This document shows, piece after piece, positions 53,976 to 63,878 of a DNA stretch of 64,000 bases. The DNA lies in contig JAKBGO010000001.1 of assembly GCA_021833065.1 (NCBI GenBank), forward strand, positions 1-64,000, in the 5' to 3' direction. Under the pieces are notes generated by a model. The model ran no database searches, had not been told where the DNA came from, and saw only the letters and a program-made list of their open reading frames with translations. Numbering within the stretch: position 1 is the stretch's first letter; each line of letters opens with the position of its first letter. The DNA is from a bacterium. Its GTDB lineage: Bacteria; Patescibacteriota; Saccharimonadia; Saccharimonadales; UBA4665. Both the position numbers and the translations under genes were made by a program.

Positions 53976-54368
53976 ATGTCATCATTTACTTTGGATACCA
54001 GTGCCTACTCGGCATTCAATAGAGGAGACAAACGTCTAAAAGCTTGGTTTAACTCAGAAATCGATATTATAGTTCCGAGCATTGTAATAGGTGAACTTAG
54101 GGCGGGTTTTGCGGCAGGTAATAAACACATAGAGAATGAGAAATTTCTACAAAGATTTCTGGATAGCCCCAATGTGTACATAGAGAGCATATCTGACGAC
54201 ACAACTAAAATATATGCAGGGGTATATCTTAGTCTACGTAACAAAGGGAAACCAATTGGCACAAACGATATGTGGATAGCAGCAATTGCACTTCAATTAA
54301 ATAATGAACTTTTAACTTTGGACGAAGGGTTTGAACATATACCTGATCTTATGGTTGCCAGCATCTAA
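53976..54368 (+). CDS. VapC-like PIN toxin
   Basis: FTLDTSAYSAFNRGD, IVPSIVIGELRAGF, IGTNDMWIAAIAL. Confidence 0.9.
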   Translation: MSSFTLDTSAYSAFNRGDKRLKAWFNSEIDIIVPSIVIGELRAGFAAGNKHIENEKFLQRFLDSPNVYIESISDDTTKIYAGVYLSLRNKGKPIGTNDMWIAAIALQLNNELLTLDEGFEHIPDLMVASI

Positions 54369-56032: not shown

Positions 56033-56839
56033 ATGAAATATCTTAACGGACTAGTACTGGTTGACTATATTAAATCCAGACATCAACGGCAGGTTGATGA
56101 TTTAAGGATTAACCATAAAAAATACTTAACTCTAGCCATTGTTGTATCTATAGATAACCCAGTTACAGAACTTTATATTAGGTTGAAACAAAAATATGCT
56201 GAAGATATTGGGGCTAGAGCATTGCTCTATAGAACTGAAATGAATGAAATCAATGATTTGATTATTTCTTTAAACAATAATAAATCGATCCACGGAATAA
56301 TAATTCAATTGCCACTTGCGGATACTAAAAAAACAGACGAAGTTGTCTCACTAATCGATAAAAACAAAGACGTTGATGGACTATCGGCTGATTCCAAGTT
56401 TGATCCAGCTACTCCTAAAGCGATTCTGTGGTTATTAGCTGGTTATAATATCGATTTTCAAGGCAAAAAAATACTGATAATAGGGAATGGCAAACTAGTC
56501 GGCGCACCCCTCAGTAGAATGTTAATTGATTCAGAATATGATGTTCAAACTGTTGACGACACCGTTCAGGATTTAAAGTCTTTGACCTTAGAATCAGATA
56601 TTATCATTACGGCCACTGGCAGCCCTCGTCTGATAACATCTGATATGGTTAATCCTAATACTGTTATTGTTGATGCCGGAGTCGCCAGCGAGAATAACAA
56701 AACCGTGGGTGATTTAGATGATTCGGTTTATGGTAGAGACGACTTAACCATTACTCCTAAAAAAGGTGGAGTTGGACCACTTACGGTTTGTGCCCTTTTC
56801 GATAATCTTATATTAGCCGCTAAATTACTTGGTGATTAA
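56033..56839 (+). CDS. folD: Bifunctional methylenetetrahydrofolate dehydrogenase/cyclohydrolase FolD
   Basis: GIIIQLPLADTKKTDEVVSLIDKNKDVDGL, GNGKLVGAPLSRML, TPKKGGVGPLTVCALFDN. Confidence 0.93.
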   Translation: MKYLNGLVLVDYIKSRHQRQVDDLRINHKKYLTLAIVVSIDNPVTELYIRLKQKYAEDIGARALLYRTEMNEINDLIISLNNNKSIHGIIIQLPLADTKKTDEVVSLIDKNKDVDGLSADSKFDPATPKAILWLLAGYNIDFQGKKILIIGNGKLVGAPLSRMLIDSEYDVQTVDDTVQDLKSLTLESDIIITATGSPRLITSDMVNPNTVIVDAGVASENNKTVGDLDDSVYGRDDLTITPKKGGVGPLTVCALFDNLILAAKLLGD

Positions 56840-57196
56840 TTGTTTTTTTACAAGTTCCGTGACTTGTCTTGGTGTCATATCGGCTTTCAGTATAACGGCA
56901 CTTACACCGAGTTTTCTGACAGATTCAGGTATTTCTTGTTCTCCCATATTTGTTAGAACAATAACTTTTAGATCTTTTCCGAAAGAAGTTGCTCTGAGTT
57001 TTTCGAGCATCACGTCGCCGTTCATTTCAGGCATCATCAAGTCAAGTAACACAATATCCGGACGCATTTCTTCAATCAGTTCGAGACCAAGTTTGCCATT
57101 TTCGGCTATTTCAACGTCATAGCCTTCAGCCTCAAATTTAAAACGGTACATTTGAGATATAATCTGATCGTCTTCTACAATAGCGACCTTGAACAT
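56825..57196 (-). CDS. Stand-alone response-regulator receiver domain (RR1)
   Basis: FKVAIVEDDQIISQMY, DIVLLDLMMPEMNGDVMLEKL, VIVLTNMG; no output domain. Confidence 0.95.
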   Translation of the reverse strand: MFKVAIVEDDQIISQMYRFKFEAEGYDVEIAENGKLGLELIEEMRPDIVLLDLMMPEMNGDVMLEKLRATSFGKDLKVIVLTNMGEQEIPESVRKLGVSAVILKADMTPRQVTELVKKQLITK

Positions 57197-57237: not shown

Positions 57238-57609
57238 TTATTTTAATAAGCGTTCAACTATGTCCAAGATCTGTTGTGGAGTATGATTTGCTTTTACGAC
57301 ATAGCCTGAAATGTTCAAAAATCGTAAGATAGCAGGGGCTTCATCTTTGCCGACATTTGTTAAAATAAGAACTTTTACATCCTTACCCCAATCATGTTTG
57401 CGGATTTCCTCAAGCAGAACATCACCATTCATTTCAGGCATCATTAGATCGAGTAACACGATGTCCGGTCCAAAGTCTTCTACAGCCTTTATTCCGAGTT
57501 TACCGTTGTGAGCAGACTTAACATCATAGCCACTCAGCTTAAATTTATAAGAATACAGATTTCTTATAGGCTCTTCGTCGTCTATTATGAGTACTTTTTT
57601 GTTTTTCAT
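57238..57609 (-). CDS. Stand-alone response-regulator receiver domain (RR2)
   Basis: KVLIIDDEEPIRNLY, DIVLLDLMMPEMNGDVLLEEI, VLILTNVGKDEAP; no output domain. Confidence 0.95.
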   Translation of the reverse strand: MKNKKVLIIDDEEPIRNLYSYKFKLSGYDVKSAHNGKLGIKAVEDFGPDIVLLDLMMPEMNGDVLLEEIRKHDWGKDVKVLILTNVGKDEAPAILRFLNISGYVVKANHTPQQILDIVERLLK

Positions 57610-57615
57610 TTATGC

Positions 57616-57644
57616 TTGACATTATAGCCAAAATAAGGTAGAAT
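57616..57644 (+). promoter_or_regulatory. Plus-strand promoter of acyl-synthase/ThiF/HK unit
   Basis: TTGACA (57616-57621) N17 TAGAAT (57639-57644). Confidence 0.75.
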
Positions 57645-57667: not shown

Positions 57668-57706
57668 ATGCACTCCAGAAAATAGTTTTTTTGGGGTGCA
57701 TTTTTA
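57668..57706 (+). terminator. Terminator-like hairpin inside the 5' leader (possible attenuator)
   Basis: ATGCACTCCAGAAAA-tagt-TTTTTTTGGGGTGCAT followed by TTTT; downstream of the promoter, upstream of the ATG at 57727. Confidence 0.65.
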
Positions 57707-57726: not shown

Positions 57727-58455
57727 ATGAGTACCACAGAATTATATAGACCTGAAATCATAACAACGTTATTCGATTCAGACCATTCCACGGATGAGTT
57801 CGCTACGGGCATTGTTGCATATGGCGACCACGCTCGTAGCGGATTGGAAAAAGAATATGCAGGCTATTTGCTTCTCAGGGGCAATGTCTATGCTTATCAG
57901 GAACATTATATGCCTGTTGAAGACCTAAATCCAGATGGAACTGAAACAGACTCAGAAGATTCAAGATCTGTTCACTTTACTGTTATCCAAAATGGCTTAA
58001 ATTCTATGGGAAAAGTAGTAGGTGCTATGCGATTGATTGTCAAATCACATGATGATCCACAAGCTCTTCCAGTTGAAATTCATTATCCTGAAGCATTCAA
58101 TAACCAGGATGTTCCATTGAATGGAATAGAGGTTTCAAGATTAATTGGTCCTGGTTTGATAAAATGGCTTCTTTTTGCAGCCGGTGTAAATTACGCAAAC
58201 GAGAATAGATTGGGTCCAGTTCTAGCGGTTGTAAAGGATTCCTTAGCGGATGCTCTAGACTCAATAGGTGTACCAGTAGTAAGACTTGCACCTCCTAAAT
58301 TTGTTGAGGAATATAATTCCTCAAAACTTCCTATATTAGTTAACGTTGATGGCTTGACCCAGACTCTTAATCGCGAAAAATCTGATGTTGTTTCCGAAAT
58401 GAAAAAAGTTGGGGAAGACTTTGTATTTTCGGGTAGAGTTGGTTTTAATAAATAA
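57727..58455 (+). CDS. LuxI/FeeM-like GNAT-fold acyl-synthase homologue (putative signal synthase)
   Basis: YAGYLLLRGNVYAYQEHYMP...SRSVHFTVIQ...GKVVGAMRLIV...GIEVSRLIGPG...LAVVKDSLADALDSIGVPVVRLAPP; likely ATG at 57727 rather than 57691. Confidence 0.6.
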   Translation: MSTTELYRPEIITTLFDSDHSTDEFATGIVAYGDHARSGLEKEYAGYLLLRGNVYAYQEHYMPVEDLNPDGTETDSEDSRSVHFTVIQNGLNSMGKVVGAMRLIVKSHDDPQALPVEIHYPEAFNNQDVPLNGIEVSRLIGPGLIKWLLFAAGVNYANENRLGPVLAVVKDSLADALDSIGVPVVRLAPPKFVEEYNSSKLPILVNVDGLTQTLNREKSDVVSEMKKVGEDFVFSGRVGFNK

Positions 58456-58476: not shown

Positions 58477-59418
58477 ATGATAACGACTAAATCACCAGAA
58501 GTTTTTAGAAACATGGGTTTCTGGAATGAAACTTTTCAACAAGCAATACTTGACACAAAAATCGCTATTGGTGGACAAGGAGGTGCGGGATTTCTATACG
58601 GGCTTGAATTAGCCAGAATAGGTGTCCAAAATTTCACTATTGCAGACCCAGAAGTTTTTGAAAGAGTGAATGGAAACAGGGTTTTGGGAGTAAATGAATG
58701 CACAATAGGACTTAATAAAGCGGAGGTTTTTGCCGAGGAAGTTCTAAAATTTAACCCAGATGCAAAGATTAATATATTAACCGATGGTGTCACGGAAGAT
58801 AATATAGAGGAATTTGCATATGGTGCAAATTTGATTTTGAATGCAACTGAATTATCTATGCCTGAACTTGGTACCATGATAGCAAGACAGGCGAGAAAAA
58901 TAGATGTTCCTGTTCTTGATATTGAATATATTGGGTATGCGGCGCAAGTTACGTCATTCCATCCCCGCAGCAAGACTACCTTCGAACGATTTATGGGAAT
59001 TGAGGGTGGCGAAAACGCACCACTTGACGAAGTTAAGGACCAAAAAATAAATACTAGTAGATTTCTTGCCTATCTTCCTCCGTATGCTGATATAAAAACC
59101 TTGATTGAAGTGCAGAACGGAGCGTCTTTACCCTCTAATATGCTAGGCGCTGGTCAAGCTACTCAACTTGGAGTTGCTGAAACATTAAAGCACATTAGGA
59201 CCAGGATTGGTCTAAATAGTACGAGGAACACAAAACCTATATATGCACCAAAGGTAAGATGGTATGATGCCTACAGTGGAGAAAGTGGTGTTTCATCACA
59301 TCCAAGAATTTCTTACTATAAACATCTAGCAAGATTAGTTATAACCAACAAACTGTTACGGAATAACGAGGAAGCAAGTTATAGCCAACACGATAGAGAA
59401 TTTCGTGGAGATGTTTAG
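58477..59418 (+). CDS. ThiF/MoeB/HesA (E1-like) adenylyltransferase homologue
   Basis: IAIGGQGGAGFLYGLELARIGVQNFTIADPEVFERVNGNR...GLNKAEVFAEEVLKFNPDAKI...LILNATE. Confidence 0.85.
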   Translation: MITTKSPEVFRNMGFWNETFQQAILDTKIAIGGQGGAGFLYGLELARIGVQNFTIADPEVFERVNGNRVLGVNECTIGLNKAEVFAEEVLKFNPDAKINILTDGVTEDNIEEFAYGANLILNATELSMPELGTMIARQARKIDVPVLDIEYIGYAAQVTSFHPRSKTTFERFMGIEGGENAPLDEVKDQKINTSRFLAYLPPYADIKTLIEVQNGASLPSNMLGAGQATQLGVAETLKHIRTRIGLNSTRNTKPIYAPKVRWYDAYSGESGVSSHPRISYYKHLARLVITNKLLRNNEEASYSQHDREFRGDV

Positions 59419-59473: not shown

Positions 59474-61663
59474 TTGTCGAGTAGAATAACTCTAGTGGGC
59501 GATTTATATCTTATCTCGAATTGGATAGTAACTGTAGCATTATTGTTACTGGGTTTAATGGCTCTCTTGAGAAACTATAAGTCCAAAATTAATCTAATCT
59601 TTTTTATTTTTACACTCGCATTAGCTGTTTGGATAATGTCGAGTTATATCAGCAACGACACCACAAATAGTAAGACAATCTCTTTGTATGGTAACTATAT
59701 AGTATTTCTTTTTAGTCTAATCTCTGGTTATCTATTGGCCTGGTTTTCTATCGCACTGAGCGAAAATAGATTTGCAGAAAAGATAATAAAAATCTCTCTT
59801 TTTCCTTTATTTATTGTAGGAATTTTATGTTTTACTCCTCTTATAATTAAATCTGTACAAATACAGGGTAGTGTGTATGCGATTACGTTCGGTCCGTTAG
59901 TTATACTATATGCTCTAAGTCTTCTAGGGTTGTTAACTTATTCTCTGATTATCTTAAGAAAGGGCGTTAAAGTTTCTCGTGGTAGTAAGCAACAGCATTT
60001 AAAACTACTCTATGTTTCAATGGTGATTGCTCTTCCATTTTTAGTAATTACAGAATTTATACTTCCTACCGTAACGGGATGGTTTGGATTAACGAATGTC
60101 GGCATATTGGTAATGATTTTACCGACACTTGGTCTTTATTATAGTGTGGTTCGCCTCAAGTTATTTAATGTGAGGTTAGCAGTAGTCAGATCCATAGGAT
60201 TTATTATTGCTGTCGGTGCTATATCTTTAATCTATGGGATTATCTCTTTCATTGTAATCAAATTCTTGAATTTTAATAAAAATGTATCTTTGCAAGAATT
60301 GTTTAACGTAGTTTTTATAATTTTTTCTAGCTCAATATTCTACCCCCTACTAAGATTCTTTAGGAGGATAAGTGATAGGTTATTCTATCAAGATTCATAT
60401 AATCCACAAAATCTTTACGATGAGTTGAATAGCCTTCTTGTATCAAGCATAGACCTGAACGAGATTATAGAAAAATCTCAGGAAATAGTTAAGAAATATC
60501 TACGAGTAGTTTTTGTTGATGTTGAAATCATTTATCAAAAAAAGAATAAACCTAAATTATCAGAAAAATTTGATAATTTCAATGTTGATAATGTTTTGAA
60601 TTATTTCTTAAAAAATAAACAAGATTATTTAGTTGTTGATGAAATTGAAGAAAGTGATTTACACAAATCCAATCTAGAAAAAAATAATATTTCGGCAATA
60701 TTTCGGCTTTATTCTAAAACAAATCAAAGAATAATCGGGTACATTTTAATTAGTAATAAAAAAAGTGGAAACATACTCAGCAAAATAGATATAAAAGTGT
60801 TAGAAACGGCTGCAAACGAAATGACTATTGCAATCGAAAATGTGTTTCATTATGAAGAAATTGCTAATTTCGCCAATACACTACAGAGTAAGGTTGATAG
60901 TGCAACTTATAAATTACGACGAGCTAACGAAAAACTTCAAGCTTTAGATGAATCCAAAGACGACTTTATATCGATGGCTTCACATCAGCTTAGAACGCCT
61001 CTCACAAGTGTTAAGGGCTATCTCAGTATGGTGCTGGAAGGCGATGCCGGGAAAGTTTCAAAGGTACAGAAGGACATGTTGGATCAAGCCTACTTTAGTT
61101 CTCAAAGAATGACCTACATAATCTCCGATTTATTGAATGTATCAAGACTTAAGACTGGTAAGTTCGTGATTGAGAGATCAAAGGTAAACTTAGCCAAATT
61201 AATCGAAGAGGAAATAGCTCAATTAACTGAAACAGCTCTCAATAAAAAAATTGATTTAATTTACGATAAACCAAAGAATTTTCCCGATTTCTATTTAGAC
61301 GAAACCAAAACTAGACAGGTTGTGATGAACTTTATGGACAATGCCTTATATTACACTCCTCAGGATGGTGAAGTTAGGGTGGAACTAATAGATAAGGAAA
61401 AAACTATTGAGTTCCGGGTTACAGATAATGGTATTGGAGTTCCTAGGAAAGAACAAGTCCATCTTTTTACTAAATTTTATCGAGCAGGTAACGCTAGGAA
61501 AGTTCGTCCGGATGGAACTGGTCTTGGTCTTTATATGGCTAAGAAAGTGATTGTTGCTGAAGGCGGTTCAATAATTTTTGAAAGCCAGGAGGGCGAAGGA
61601 AGTACATTCGGTTTTGAATTTTCAAAAGATAAAATTTCTCAAAACTCAGAGGCTGATAGCTAG
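59474..61663 (+). CDS. Sensor histidine kinase with multi-TM N-terminal region (HK1)
   Basis: Multi-TM N-terminus, GAF-like linker, SHQLRTPLTSVKGYL H-box, NFMDNALYYTP, DNGIGV, GTGLGLYM; TTG start in track. Confidence 0.93.
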   Translation: MSSRITLVGDLYLISNWIVTVALLLLGLMALLRNYKSKINLIFFIFTLALAVWIMSSYISNDTTNSKTISLYGNYIVFLFSLISGYLLAWFSIALSENRFAEKIIKISLFPLFIVGILCFTPLIIKSVQIQGSVYAITFGPLVILYALSLLGLLTYSLIILRKGVKVSRGSKQQHLKLLYVSMVIALPFLVITEFILPTVTGWFGLTNVGILVMILPTLGLYYSVVRLKLFNVRLAVVRSIGFIIAVGAISLIYGIISFIVIKFLNFNKNVSLQELFNVVFIIFSSSIFYPLLRFFRRISDRLFYQDSYNPQNLYDELNSLLVSSIDLNEIIEKSQEIVKKYLRVVFVDVEIIYQKKNKPKLSEKFDNFNVDNVLNYFLKNKQDYLVVDEIEESDLHKSNLEKNNISAIFRLYSKTNQRIIGYILISNKKSGNILSKIDIKVLETAANEMTIAIENVFHYEEIANFANTLQSKVDSATYKLRRANEKLQALDESKDDFISMASHQLRTPLTSVKGYLSMVLEGDAGKVSKVQKDMLDQAYFSSQRMTYIISDLLNVSRLKTGKFVIERSKVNLAKLIEEEIAQLTETALNKKIDLIYDKPKNFPDFYLDETKTRQVVMNFMDNALYYTPQDGEVRVELIDKEKTIEFRVTDNGIGVPRKEQVHLFTKFYRAGNARKVRPDGTGLGLYMAKKVIVAEGGSIIFESQEGEGSTFGFEFSKDKISQNSEADS

Positions 61664-61712: not shown

Positions 61713-63878
61713 ATGTTTGCTCTTGCTAGCTTTATTTTTTCGATAGTAATAATAGTAGGTGCTGCACTGGTCGTCCTCCTTAAGTCTTATAAAAGAAGGA
61801 TTAATCAGTTCTATTTCTTGAATGCCGGATTAATCGTGGCGCTAAACTTTTTCAACTATTTGTCCCTGAAACCCGTAGACAGTTCAATAATCTATATTAG
61901 GGCAGTAATTTCACTAACAACTCTGATAATTGGAATATTTTATCTGACTTCATATTATCTTAATAGTGAAAAAATTCAATTAACCACTTTTCAAACCGTT
62001 TATTTGATCGCGACTTTTTTCGTTGCTTTAGTAGATTTGACCGACAAGGTTTTTAAATCTGTTGATTACGGGAAAGTCTTCCATCTTTATCTTGGACCTC
62101 TTGTACTTCTCTTTATACTGCATGCTACATTCACAACCATAGTGGTAGTAACAGTGGTAATCAGGCAAATCAAGCATACCAGAGGAAGGATAAGGCAACA
62201 ATATCAGTATCTCCTAATCGGTGTAGTTCCTGCCTACCTGTCGTCTGCTATAACTTCTTTTATCCTTCCGTATTATTTCCATAATGCTTCACTGATTGTT
62301 TTTACACCGGTCTACCTGGAATTAATATATGCAATGATAGGGTTGTCGATTATCTTTAATGGCTTGTTCGATCTCAGATTCTATCTATACAATGCATTGA
62401 TTAATCTTTTAATCATTGTTTTAGCTGATATATTGCTAGCAATCCCGTTTCTGCTTTTAGTTGATTGGATTTTTAGACTCAACTTATCGCTTAATCAGTT
62501 TTTATTGGCGAGCTTGATTCTTCTAATTCCCATATTCCTCTATCCCTACGTTGTCAGAATGTTTCGTAAAACCACCGGTCGTTTTTTCTTCAATGACTAT
62601 TATGACCCGGAAGAGTTTATGTCGGAATTTAATAATTTGATCATATCCAATTTCGATGTCCATTCATTGATTAGAAAAGTTTCCGACTTCATCAAAAATA
62701 ATATGAAGATAGATTTCATTGAATTCTATATCAATGATGAGGTTGCCAGTCAAAACCTGAAGAGAATCAAACAGATATCGCCAAGAGACGTTGATTTCTT
62801 AAACAGATACCTGCCTCATTCGAAAGAAACCATGATTAATCTTGAGGCCGATGAAAGATTAAGCTTAGCAAGCTATTCAAATAATAATTTCAATGACAAA
62901 ATCAGCCTGATAATTCCTTTAAATAGCTATTTTGACGGCCGAAAACGCTATATCGGCTTTTATCTTTTGTCTCACAAGAAAAGCAATCAGACATATAATT
63001 CCAAAGATTTAAGAATGATTAGTTCAATAACTGATGTTCTAATTGTTGCGATTCAAAACCTACTTCATTACGAAGAAATTCGAACCCTAAACTCAAGTCT
63101 TCAGGATAAAATTGACGCTGCCACACTTGATCTTAGAAGATCGAATGAAAAACTAAAACAACTAGACGAATCAAAAGATGACTTCATTTCTATGGCTTCA
63201 CATCAGCTTCGAACTCCTCTTACAAGTGTTAAGGGATATCTCAGTATGGTGCTCGAAGGTGATGCCGGGAAAATATCGTCTATGCAAAAAAATATGTTAA
63301 ATCAAGCGTTCTTTTCTGCCCAGAAAATGGTTTACCTGGTAGCCGATCTTCTCAATGTATCTAGAATAAAAACCGGCAAATTTATAATTGAACCAACCAG
63401 AGTAAATCTGGCTGTTTTAGTCGATCAGGAAATGAAACAATTGCTTGATACTGCTGAAGCTCGGGGCGTTGAACTGGTCTACGAAAGACCCGATGATTTT
63501 CCTGATTTAATGCTCGACGAAACTAAAATCAGGCAAGTAATCATGAACTTTATAGACAATGCGATATACTATACTCTCGCCGGTGGCAAGGCCAGGATTA
63601 TTATAAGCGAAACGGAAAAAACGGTTGAATTTAAAGTCAAGGACAATGGTATAGGTGTAACGAAATCTGAACAACCGCATCTCTTTACAAAATTTTATCG
63701 GGCAACAAATGCCAGGAAAGTTCGTCCCGACGGTACTGGTCTCGGACTGTATATGGCCAAAAAGGTTATTATGGCCGAACAAGGATCAATTATTTTTGAT
63801 AGCGTAGAAGGCAAAGGCAGTACCTTTGGATTCATACTTCCTAAGTCCAAGCTAGCGGCACCCCAAAACCAGCACTAA
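61713..63878 (+). CDS. Sensor histidine kinase with multi-TM N-terminal region (HK2, paralogue of HK1)
   Basis: Same architecture; SHQLRTPLTSVKGYLSMVLEGDAGK shared with HK1. Confidence 0.94.
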   Translation: MFALASFIFSIVIIVGAALVVLLKSYKRRINQFYFLNAGLIVALNFFNYLSLKPVDSSIIYIRAVISLTTLIIGIFYLTSYYLNSEKIQLTTFQTVYLIATFFVALVDLTDKVFKSVDYGKVFHLYLGPLVLLFILHATFTTIVVVTVVIRQIKHTRGRIRQQYQYLLIGVVPAYLSSAITSFILPYYFHNASLIVFTPVYLELIYAMIGLSIIFNGLFDLRFYLYNALINLLIIVLADILLAIPFLLLVDWIFRLNLSLNQFLLASLILLIPIFLYPYVVRMFRKTTGRFFFNDYYDPEEFMSEFNNLIISNFDVHSLIRKVSDFIKNNMKIDFIEFYINDEVASQNLKRIKQISPRDVDFLNRYLPHSKETMINLEADERLSLASYSNNNFNDKISLIIPLNSYFDGRKRYIGFYLLSHKKSNQTYNSKDLRMISSITDVLIVAIQNLLHYEEIRTLNSSLQDKIDAATLDLRRSNEKLKQLDESKDDFISMASHQLRTPLTSVKGYLSMVLEGDAGKISSMQKNMLNQAFFSAQKMVYLVADLLNVSRIKTGKFIIEPTRVNLAVLVDQEMKQLLDTAEARGVELVYERPDDFPDLMLDETKIRQVIMNFIDNAIYYTLAGGKARIIISETEKTVEFKVKDNGIGVTKSEQPHLFTKFYRATNARKVRPDGTGLGLYMAKKVIMAEQGSIIFDSVEGKGSTFGFILPKSKLAAPQNQH

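Follow-up and report, generated by a model that had tools for sequence, protein, structure and literature searches.

A LuxI/FeeM-type acyltransferase, a ThiF-like enzyme and a membrane sensor kinase as a putative small-molecule signalling cassette of Saccharibacteria

Saccharibacteria are ultrasmall episymbionts, and a gene in one of them that resembles the synthases of acyl signals raises the question of what its enzyme would make and what would perceive the product. We addressed this question in a window of 64,000 nucleotides that opens a contig of 79,870 bases from a source genome of 664 kb (37 contigs, 84% complete), and in related loci. Those related contigs that contain the complete cassette and have a name are all Candidatus Saccharibacteria, and the source organism is thus almost certainly a Saccharibacterium as well. 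Overall, the explanation that we favour, with a probability of roughly 0.55, is that the acyltransferase, an adjacent ThiF-like enzyme and a sensor kinase constitute a small-molecule signalling cassette with the chemistry proposed below. That these genes encode a functional synthase–sensor cassette, taken as a broader statement, is quite probable.

The acyltransferase and its operon

The open reading frame under study starts with ATG and contains all of the sequence strings quoted in the first-pass annotation, and the reverse strand across it carries many stops. The ATG at 57727 is preferred as the start because an upstream TTG (57691) falls within the leader hairpin. The gene is present as a single copy in the source genome. 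Searched alone, the protein matched Acetyltransf_5 (E 8e-4, under the curated cut-off), FeeM (PF21926; 0.012, 15.9 bits versus a cut-off of 27) and Autoind_synth (PF00765; 0.21, 11.5 bits versus 24), such that the curated score for an acyl-homoserine lactone (AHL) synthase is not reached. Relatives score higher: L045 and L046 pass the FeeM cut-off with 36.4 and 35.3 bits, the Acetyltransf_5 cut-off of 22.4 is passed with 29.6 and 36.6 bits, and L046 lies just at the Autoind_synth cut-off (24.0). Profiles were likewise needed to match sequences in the PDB, as a single-protein search returned only spurious lactate dehydrogenase matches; a 21-sequence profile matched EsaI (7e-9), BjaI (4e-7), the AHL synthase 3p2f (1e-6), LasI (1e-5) and RpaI (1e-4).

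The computed structure agrees with these profile matches. Specifically, an AlphaFold model of the acyltransferase, with an alignment composed only of window and related-locus sequences, has a pLDDT of 92, and in a Foldseek comparison with the PDB ranks 1–18 were all AHL synthases (BjaI, RpaI, TofI, EsaI, LasI and MesI) and FeeM, with E values of 2e-9 to 1e-4 and no unrelated fold among them. The nearest solved structures are CoA-dependent AHL synthases. Residues R51, Y55, G71, D75, R102, E135, S137 and R138 are shared by all 21 homologues, and D78 is nearly invariant; by alignment with EsaI, we take the invariant residues to be the catalytic Arg, aromatic, Asp, Arg, Glu and Arg positions of LuxI. 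The family resemblance is far beyond chance, and we regard membership of this protein in the LuxI/FeeM-type acyl synthase superfamily, with its GNAT-derived fold, as practically certain. The first-pass annotation had proposed a LuxI/FeeM-like homologue from its Y-x-LR, VVG and E-x-S-R elements, and the fold search, the profile and the invariant residues bear this out, the conserved Arg and Glu positions being kept in 21 of 21 homologues. FeeM itself, an N-acyl amino acid synthase (PDB 2g0b), has the same fold and likely the same type of reaction at about 13% identity. The best NCBIfam match was TIGR03694 (exosort_acyl, a PEP-CTERM/exosortase-associated acyltransferase; 3e-13), yet an exosortase-system reading was rejected, since the score is far under the cut-off (49.7 versus 112) and no exosortase component was found among the neighbours identified.

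The acyl-synthase call therefore stood, but the gene is not an isolated one, and the first-pass annotation had overlooked the ThiF-like enzyme, the sensor kinase, the regulators and the variable slot that are described here. The acyltransferase is the first gene of an operon that continues with the ThiF-like enzyme and two tandem kinases (Table 1). The ThiF-like protein matches TcdA, ThiF, MccB and PaaA and possesses the adenylation-site residues; GxGGxG, D57, N65, N67, R68, K81 and E125 are invariant in seven close relatives, the acidic residue 125 thus being Glu in these. A model of the HK1 sensor (59474–60763; pLDDT 73) contains a beta hairpin between helices and gave weak PDB matches, the top ones all 7TM receptors (GPCRs) with E above 0.001. 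Both CheY-like regulators are conserved beside most kinase/acyltransferase loci and are without an output domain, which counts against the signalling cassette that we propose. With respect to the leader, the stem-loop could be an attenuator; a scan of 20 other loci showed strong hairpins ahead of the synthase in 4 (5 of 21 with the present locus), the hairpin not being consistently conserved, and an Rfam scan of the leader gave no match. Near the locus, a PIN-domain protein (PF01850) is encoded at 53976–54368.

Table 1. Features of the acyltransferase locus, in window coordinates.
Feature	Position	Strand	Remarks
FolD	56033–56839	+	Syntenic marker of the locus, context only
RR1, CheY-like single-domain response regulator	56825–57196	-	PF00072 5.7e-21
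RR2, CheY-like single-domain response regulator	57238–57609	-	PF00072 9.5e-20; divergent from operon
Sigma-70-like promoter, TTGACA-17-TAGAAT	57616–57644	+	11/12 matches, by consensus only; ahead of operon
Leader stem-loop, then T run	57668–57701	+	Located after promoter, ahead of synthase ATG
LuxI/FeeM-type acyltransferase, putative N-acyl amino acid synthase	57727–58455	+	242 aa; profile, structure, conserved residues
ThiF/E1-like adenylating enzyme, putative cyclase	58477–59418	+	313 aa; PF00899 3e-23; 21 bp after acyltransferase
HK1, multi-TM sensor histidine kinase	59474–61663	+	N-terminal membrane sensor, cytosolic middle region, HisKA, HATPase
HK2, second tandem sensor histidine kinase	61713–63878	+	Divergent membrane sensor, HisKA_7TM 8.5e-4

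Substrates and product

In terms of substrate, the position of the LuxI Trp, which is invariant there and belongs to the SAM pocket, is occupied by Tyr61 in our alignment with EsaI and is variable in relatives. MetK was found in 7 of 13 carrier genomes, including the source genome, and is missing from 6 of 12 near-complete carriers. In AHL synthesis lactonisation is intrinsic and a ThiF-like enzyme is not needed, which would leave the ThiF partner superfluous. These observations bear on the alternative that the enzyme is a true AHL synthase, converting SAM and acyl-ACP or acyl-CoA into an acyl-homoserine lactone that the kinase would perceive, which is what Bernard et al. 2020 assumed for CPR LuxI homologues. 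The nearest solved structures, the carriers that do possess MetK and the 18 CPR LuxI homologues located beside sensory kinases in that study (PMC7567580) speak for this alternative. The Tyr at the Trp position, the six near-complete carriers lacking MetK, the Autoind_synth score under its cut-off and the dispensable ThiF partner speak against it, and we consider it quite improbable. The enzyme is probably not an AHL maker, given the Tyr substitution and the lack of MetK in half of the near-complete carriers; SAM is disfavoured as the acceptor, and acylation of an amino acid with subsequent cyclisation by ThiF is the better fit.

The pairing of a LuxI/FeeM-type acyltransferase with a ThiF-like cyclase is shared with OxzAB of Pseudoalteromonas rubra and with TyzABC and TrzAS of Mycobacterium tuberculosis. 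In the latter species, TyzA N-acylates Tyr or Phe from acyl-CoA, the ThiF protein TyzB cyclises the product and TyzC, of the nitroreductase superfamily, desaturates it to give acyl-oxazolones (PMC10404671); TrzAS performs the same chemistry on Trp, and with desaturation blocked TrzS gives the saturated, ring-closed compound (PMC12856293); and cyclisation of the TyzB/TrzS type after N-acylation is ATP-dependent (PMC10404671, PMC12856293). Whereas those clusters include a nitroreductase or flavin oxidase, this component is missing from the present cassette, to which a sensor kinase is added. A nitroreductase/flavin oxidase was found neither in the cassette nor in 12 of the 13 carriers (the source genome and 11 others), the sole nitroreductase domain among the 13 lying within a 722-aa open frame (G110:C2:86184-86699). 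As the first two activities are present by homology and the nitroreductase is missing, the simplest guess for the product is a saturated acyl-oxazolone; that the cassette makes an acyl-oxazolone is a reasoned but tentative proposal by analogy. A saturated azlactone is prone to hydrolysis, which weighs against a role for it in signalling.

In a further difference from the known clusters, neither an acyl carrier protein nor an AMP-binding acyl-CoA synthetase/ligase was found in the 13 carrier genomes, although positive controls were detected. Since the source genome is 84% complete, these gene absences rest mainly on the other 12 carriers. The missing acyl-donor pathway is a point against the signalling cassette, and it is also the reason that the donor is perhaps supplied by the host. 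A host-derived donor had been put forward in the first-pass annotation, and we grade this suggestion as plausible.

Kinase adjacency, the enzyme slot and sensor co-variation

Homologues of the acyltransferase are patchily distributed: they occur in 8 of 94 genomes at the family level, in 18 of 393 at the class level and in 11 of 384 from a phylum sample. A kinase of the same family follows the acyltransferase at all 21 Saccharimonadia loci examined, and a kinase adjoins it at 8 of 8 further phylum-sample loci and at one in genome G097 (L144), which brings the total to 30 of 30 profile-detected Patescibacteria loci inspected; Uhrbacteria L070 is a case beyond these 30. Carrier genomes contain only 6–11 HisKA kinases, and the adjacency is therefore not due to chance, with the qualification that the loci share ancestry. 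The acyltransferase and ThiF are adjacent or fused at most loci, the fusion into one protein being found in four searched genomes and at locus L071; at two distant loci a methyltransferase takes the place of ThiF, and the ThiF of one slot belongs to the Rv1355c/TrzS family (7.5e-49). Related loci were gathered with ThiF as bait, the acyltransferase as bait having given none or lacked a conserved stretch.

An association of this type has in part been reported before. Bernard et al. 2020 described LuxI homologues in CPR, interpreted there as AHL synthases, of which 18 adjoin a sensory kinase; these likewise represent a LuxI-like gene beside a kinase in Patescibacteria, but the accessible portion of the paper does not mention ThiF or describe a swapped slot or sensor co-variation (PMC7567580). 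More widely, the open-licence literature yielded no paper that ties ThiF, slot polymorphism or sensor co-variation to Saccharibacteria, so that LuxI–kinase adjacency in CPR is the part already known (2020).

The kinase N-terminal region is considerably more common than the profile-detected synthase, occurring in 210 of 393 Saccharimonadia genomes, and the slot before kinases of this class is mostly filled by enzymes other than the acyltransferase. In 19 + 60 loci that were inspected, the same kinase, often at one and the same locus marked by FolD and the regulators, is preceded by one to three differing enzymes. Among 81 kinases whose loci gave no strong profile match to the acyltransferase, 69 are accompanied by a co-directional open reading frame of 150 aa or more and 35 by a member of an acyl/ThiF group, the latter by loose clustering with approximate nearest-neighbour labels. 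Other contents include methyltransferases, an ELFV dehydrogenase, UbiA, a PLP decarboxylase and LPG synthase, and several slot enzymes are without a known domain. The slots of L107, L149 and L155, in which a ~500-aa protein, ThiF and a member of a nitroreductase-family cluster precede the kinase, resemble complete acyl-oxazolone clusters in their gene content, the nitroreductase match of L155 being weak and joined to an alpha/beta hydrolase. When the remaining slot clusters were compared with the acyltransferase profile against profile, only one further candidate emerged (C10, probability 78%). A conserved kinase locus is thus preceded by an enzyme module that is exchanged between loci. A ~500-aa family (cluster C2; L107, L108, L128, L132, L134, L142 and others) is found in the slot repeatedly, in many cases together with ThiF or an ELFV dehydrogenase, and a Pfam scan of one member gave no match.

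These slot contents, which look like small biosynthetic clusters (methyltransferases, UbiA, PLP decarboxylase, LPG synthase), are what would be expected if the enzymes made a lipid or bioactive compound, such as an envelope lipid, an antimicrobial or a host-modulating metabolite, with the kinase merely regulating the genes or sensing feedback and no signal passing between cells. The mycobacterial acyl-oxazolone papers, in the parts available, show no signalling role (PMC10404671, PMC12856293), which agrees with this alternative. The specific co-variation of enzyme and TM sensor described next is more in keeping with ligand recognition, though product feedback sensing would look alike; we judge a purely biosynthetic role unlikely. 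The signalling cassette is itself weakened where several slot enzymes have no known domain and the slot labels derive from loose clustering.

The relation between enzyme and sensor was quantified across 17 full-length loci. Distances among the acyltransferases correlate with those among the TM sensors (r 0.77), also when kinase distance is taken into account (partial r 0.72, Mantel p 2e-4; leave-one-out range 0.68–0.78), and neither the correlation with the linker (0.12) nor that with the kinase given the sensor (0.10) is significant. With RR1 as the control (n = 13), the corresponding values are 0.66 for acyltransferase and sensor and 0.00 for acyltransferase and kinase. Along HK1, the correlation is 0.64–0.72 at residues 1–250 and 0.24–0.42 beyond, a region that includes a faster-evolving stretch. 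Independently of this comparison, in 75 kinases sensors behind slots of the same class exceed the identity predicted from the kinase by 4.9 points (p 0.001), and no such excess was found in the middle region. The TM sensor is therefore the part of HK1 that co-varies with the enzyme, to the exclusion of the linker and catalytic domain.

The 5′ end of the kinase gene, directly downstream of the enzymes, encodes the sensor, and block recombination could therefore yield part of this co-variation; physical linkage could contribute. In its strong form, this argument holds that the kinase senses something unrelated and that the co-variation is hitch-hiking, the 5′ half of the kinase gene recombining with adjoining enzyme genes, an idea to which the spread of the kinase family (210 of 393 genomes) far beyond the profile-detected synthase also lends itself. 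We consider it distinctly unlikely. The acyltransferase, one gene farther from the sensor, predicts it better than the nearer ThiF (0.56 versus 0.05, n = 14), ThiF adding nothing once the acyltransferase is known, and the correlation falls at the end of the TM region, not at a conserved, recombination-prone block. Taken together with the swapped slot, this leads us to infer, at the level of sequence, a polymorphic synthase–receptor system.

A proposed pathway and possible exchange with hosts

The substrates, product, product sensing and output of the signalling cassette would be as follows. With a CoA thioester, taken or received from the host, as the probable acyl donor, the acyltransferase would acylate the amino group of an amino acid. 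In a second step, the ThiF-like enzyme would adenylate the carboxylate of this N-acyl amino acid and cyclise it, most likely to a saturated acyl-oxazolone (azlactone), the saturated form being suggested by the missing nitroreductase partner. The adjacent kinase would read this product via its N-terminal membrane domain and pass the signal on to the CheY-like regulators that diverge from the operon. Across the class at large, the enzyme module is swapped before the conserved kinase locus, and lineages would therefore make and sense different molecules. The CqsA–CqsS and LuxM–LuxN systems similarly place a small-molecule synthase beside a multi-TM kinase receptor; their enzymes are unrelated to those here and the synthase is fixed, whereas the enzyme module before the Saccharibacterial kinase locus varies. 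We know of no kinase coupling for FeeM. The cassette looks unusually broad and its diversification appears fast.

If correct, this proposal would give Saccharibacteria a small-molecule signalling of their own, class-wide and diversified by enzyme swaps before one kinase. It would assign acyl-oxazolone-type chemistry to CPR genes earlier read as AHL synthases, offer a natural series of synthase–receptor pairs and render episymbiont–host communication testable in existing co-cultures. A more far-reaching version, which we put forward as speculative and somewhat short of even odds, is that Saccharibacteria carry a polymorphic chemical-communication locus in which the co-varying sensor has as its ligand the product of the swappable module, in this lineage a saturated acyl-oxazolone. 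Near-minimal genomes would in this way possess lineage-specific pheromones, and exchange of the enzymes would extend to Microbacteriaceae, a family that includes a known host.

With respect to such exchange, the acyltransferase–ThiF pair occurs without a kinase of this type in Leucobacter, Agreia and Cryobacterium and twice in Acetobacterium dehalogenans (L048, L052, L055, L057-L069; mainly Leucobacter among the Microbacteriaceae). That these bacteria keep the enzyme pair without the kinase counts against the signalling cassette. In the ThiF tree, each of the two Acetobacterium copies has a Saccharibacterial sequence as its sister, at full or near-full support. The Microbacteriaceae sequences group in a single clade amid Saccharibacterial ones, with moderate support for its position; the nested copies suggest transfer. 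Leucobacter aridicollis is a known host of Saccharibacterium TM7i (PMC11452946), which makes an exchange of enzymes between Saccharibacteria and their hosts plausible as an interpretation of the tree. Separately, ThiF adjoins a FeeM-type gene in a Bacteroidetes MAG (L074) and a methyltransferase–FeeM fusion in a Nanoarchaeota MAG (L075).
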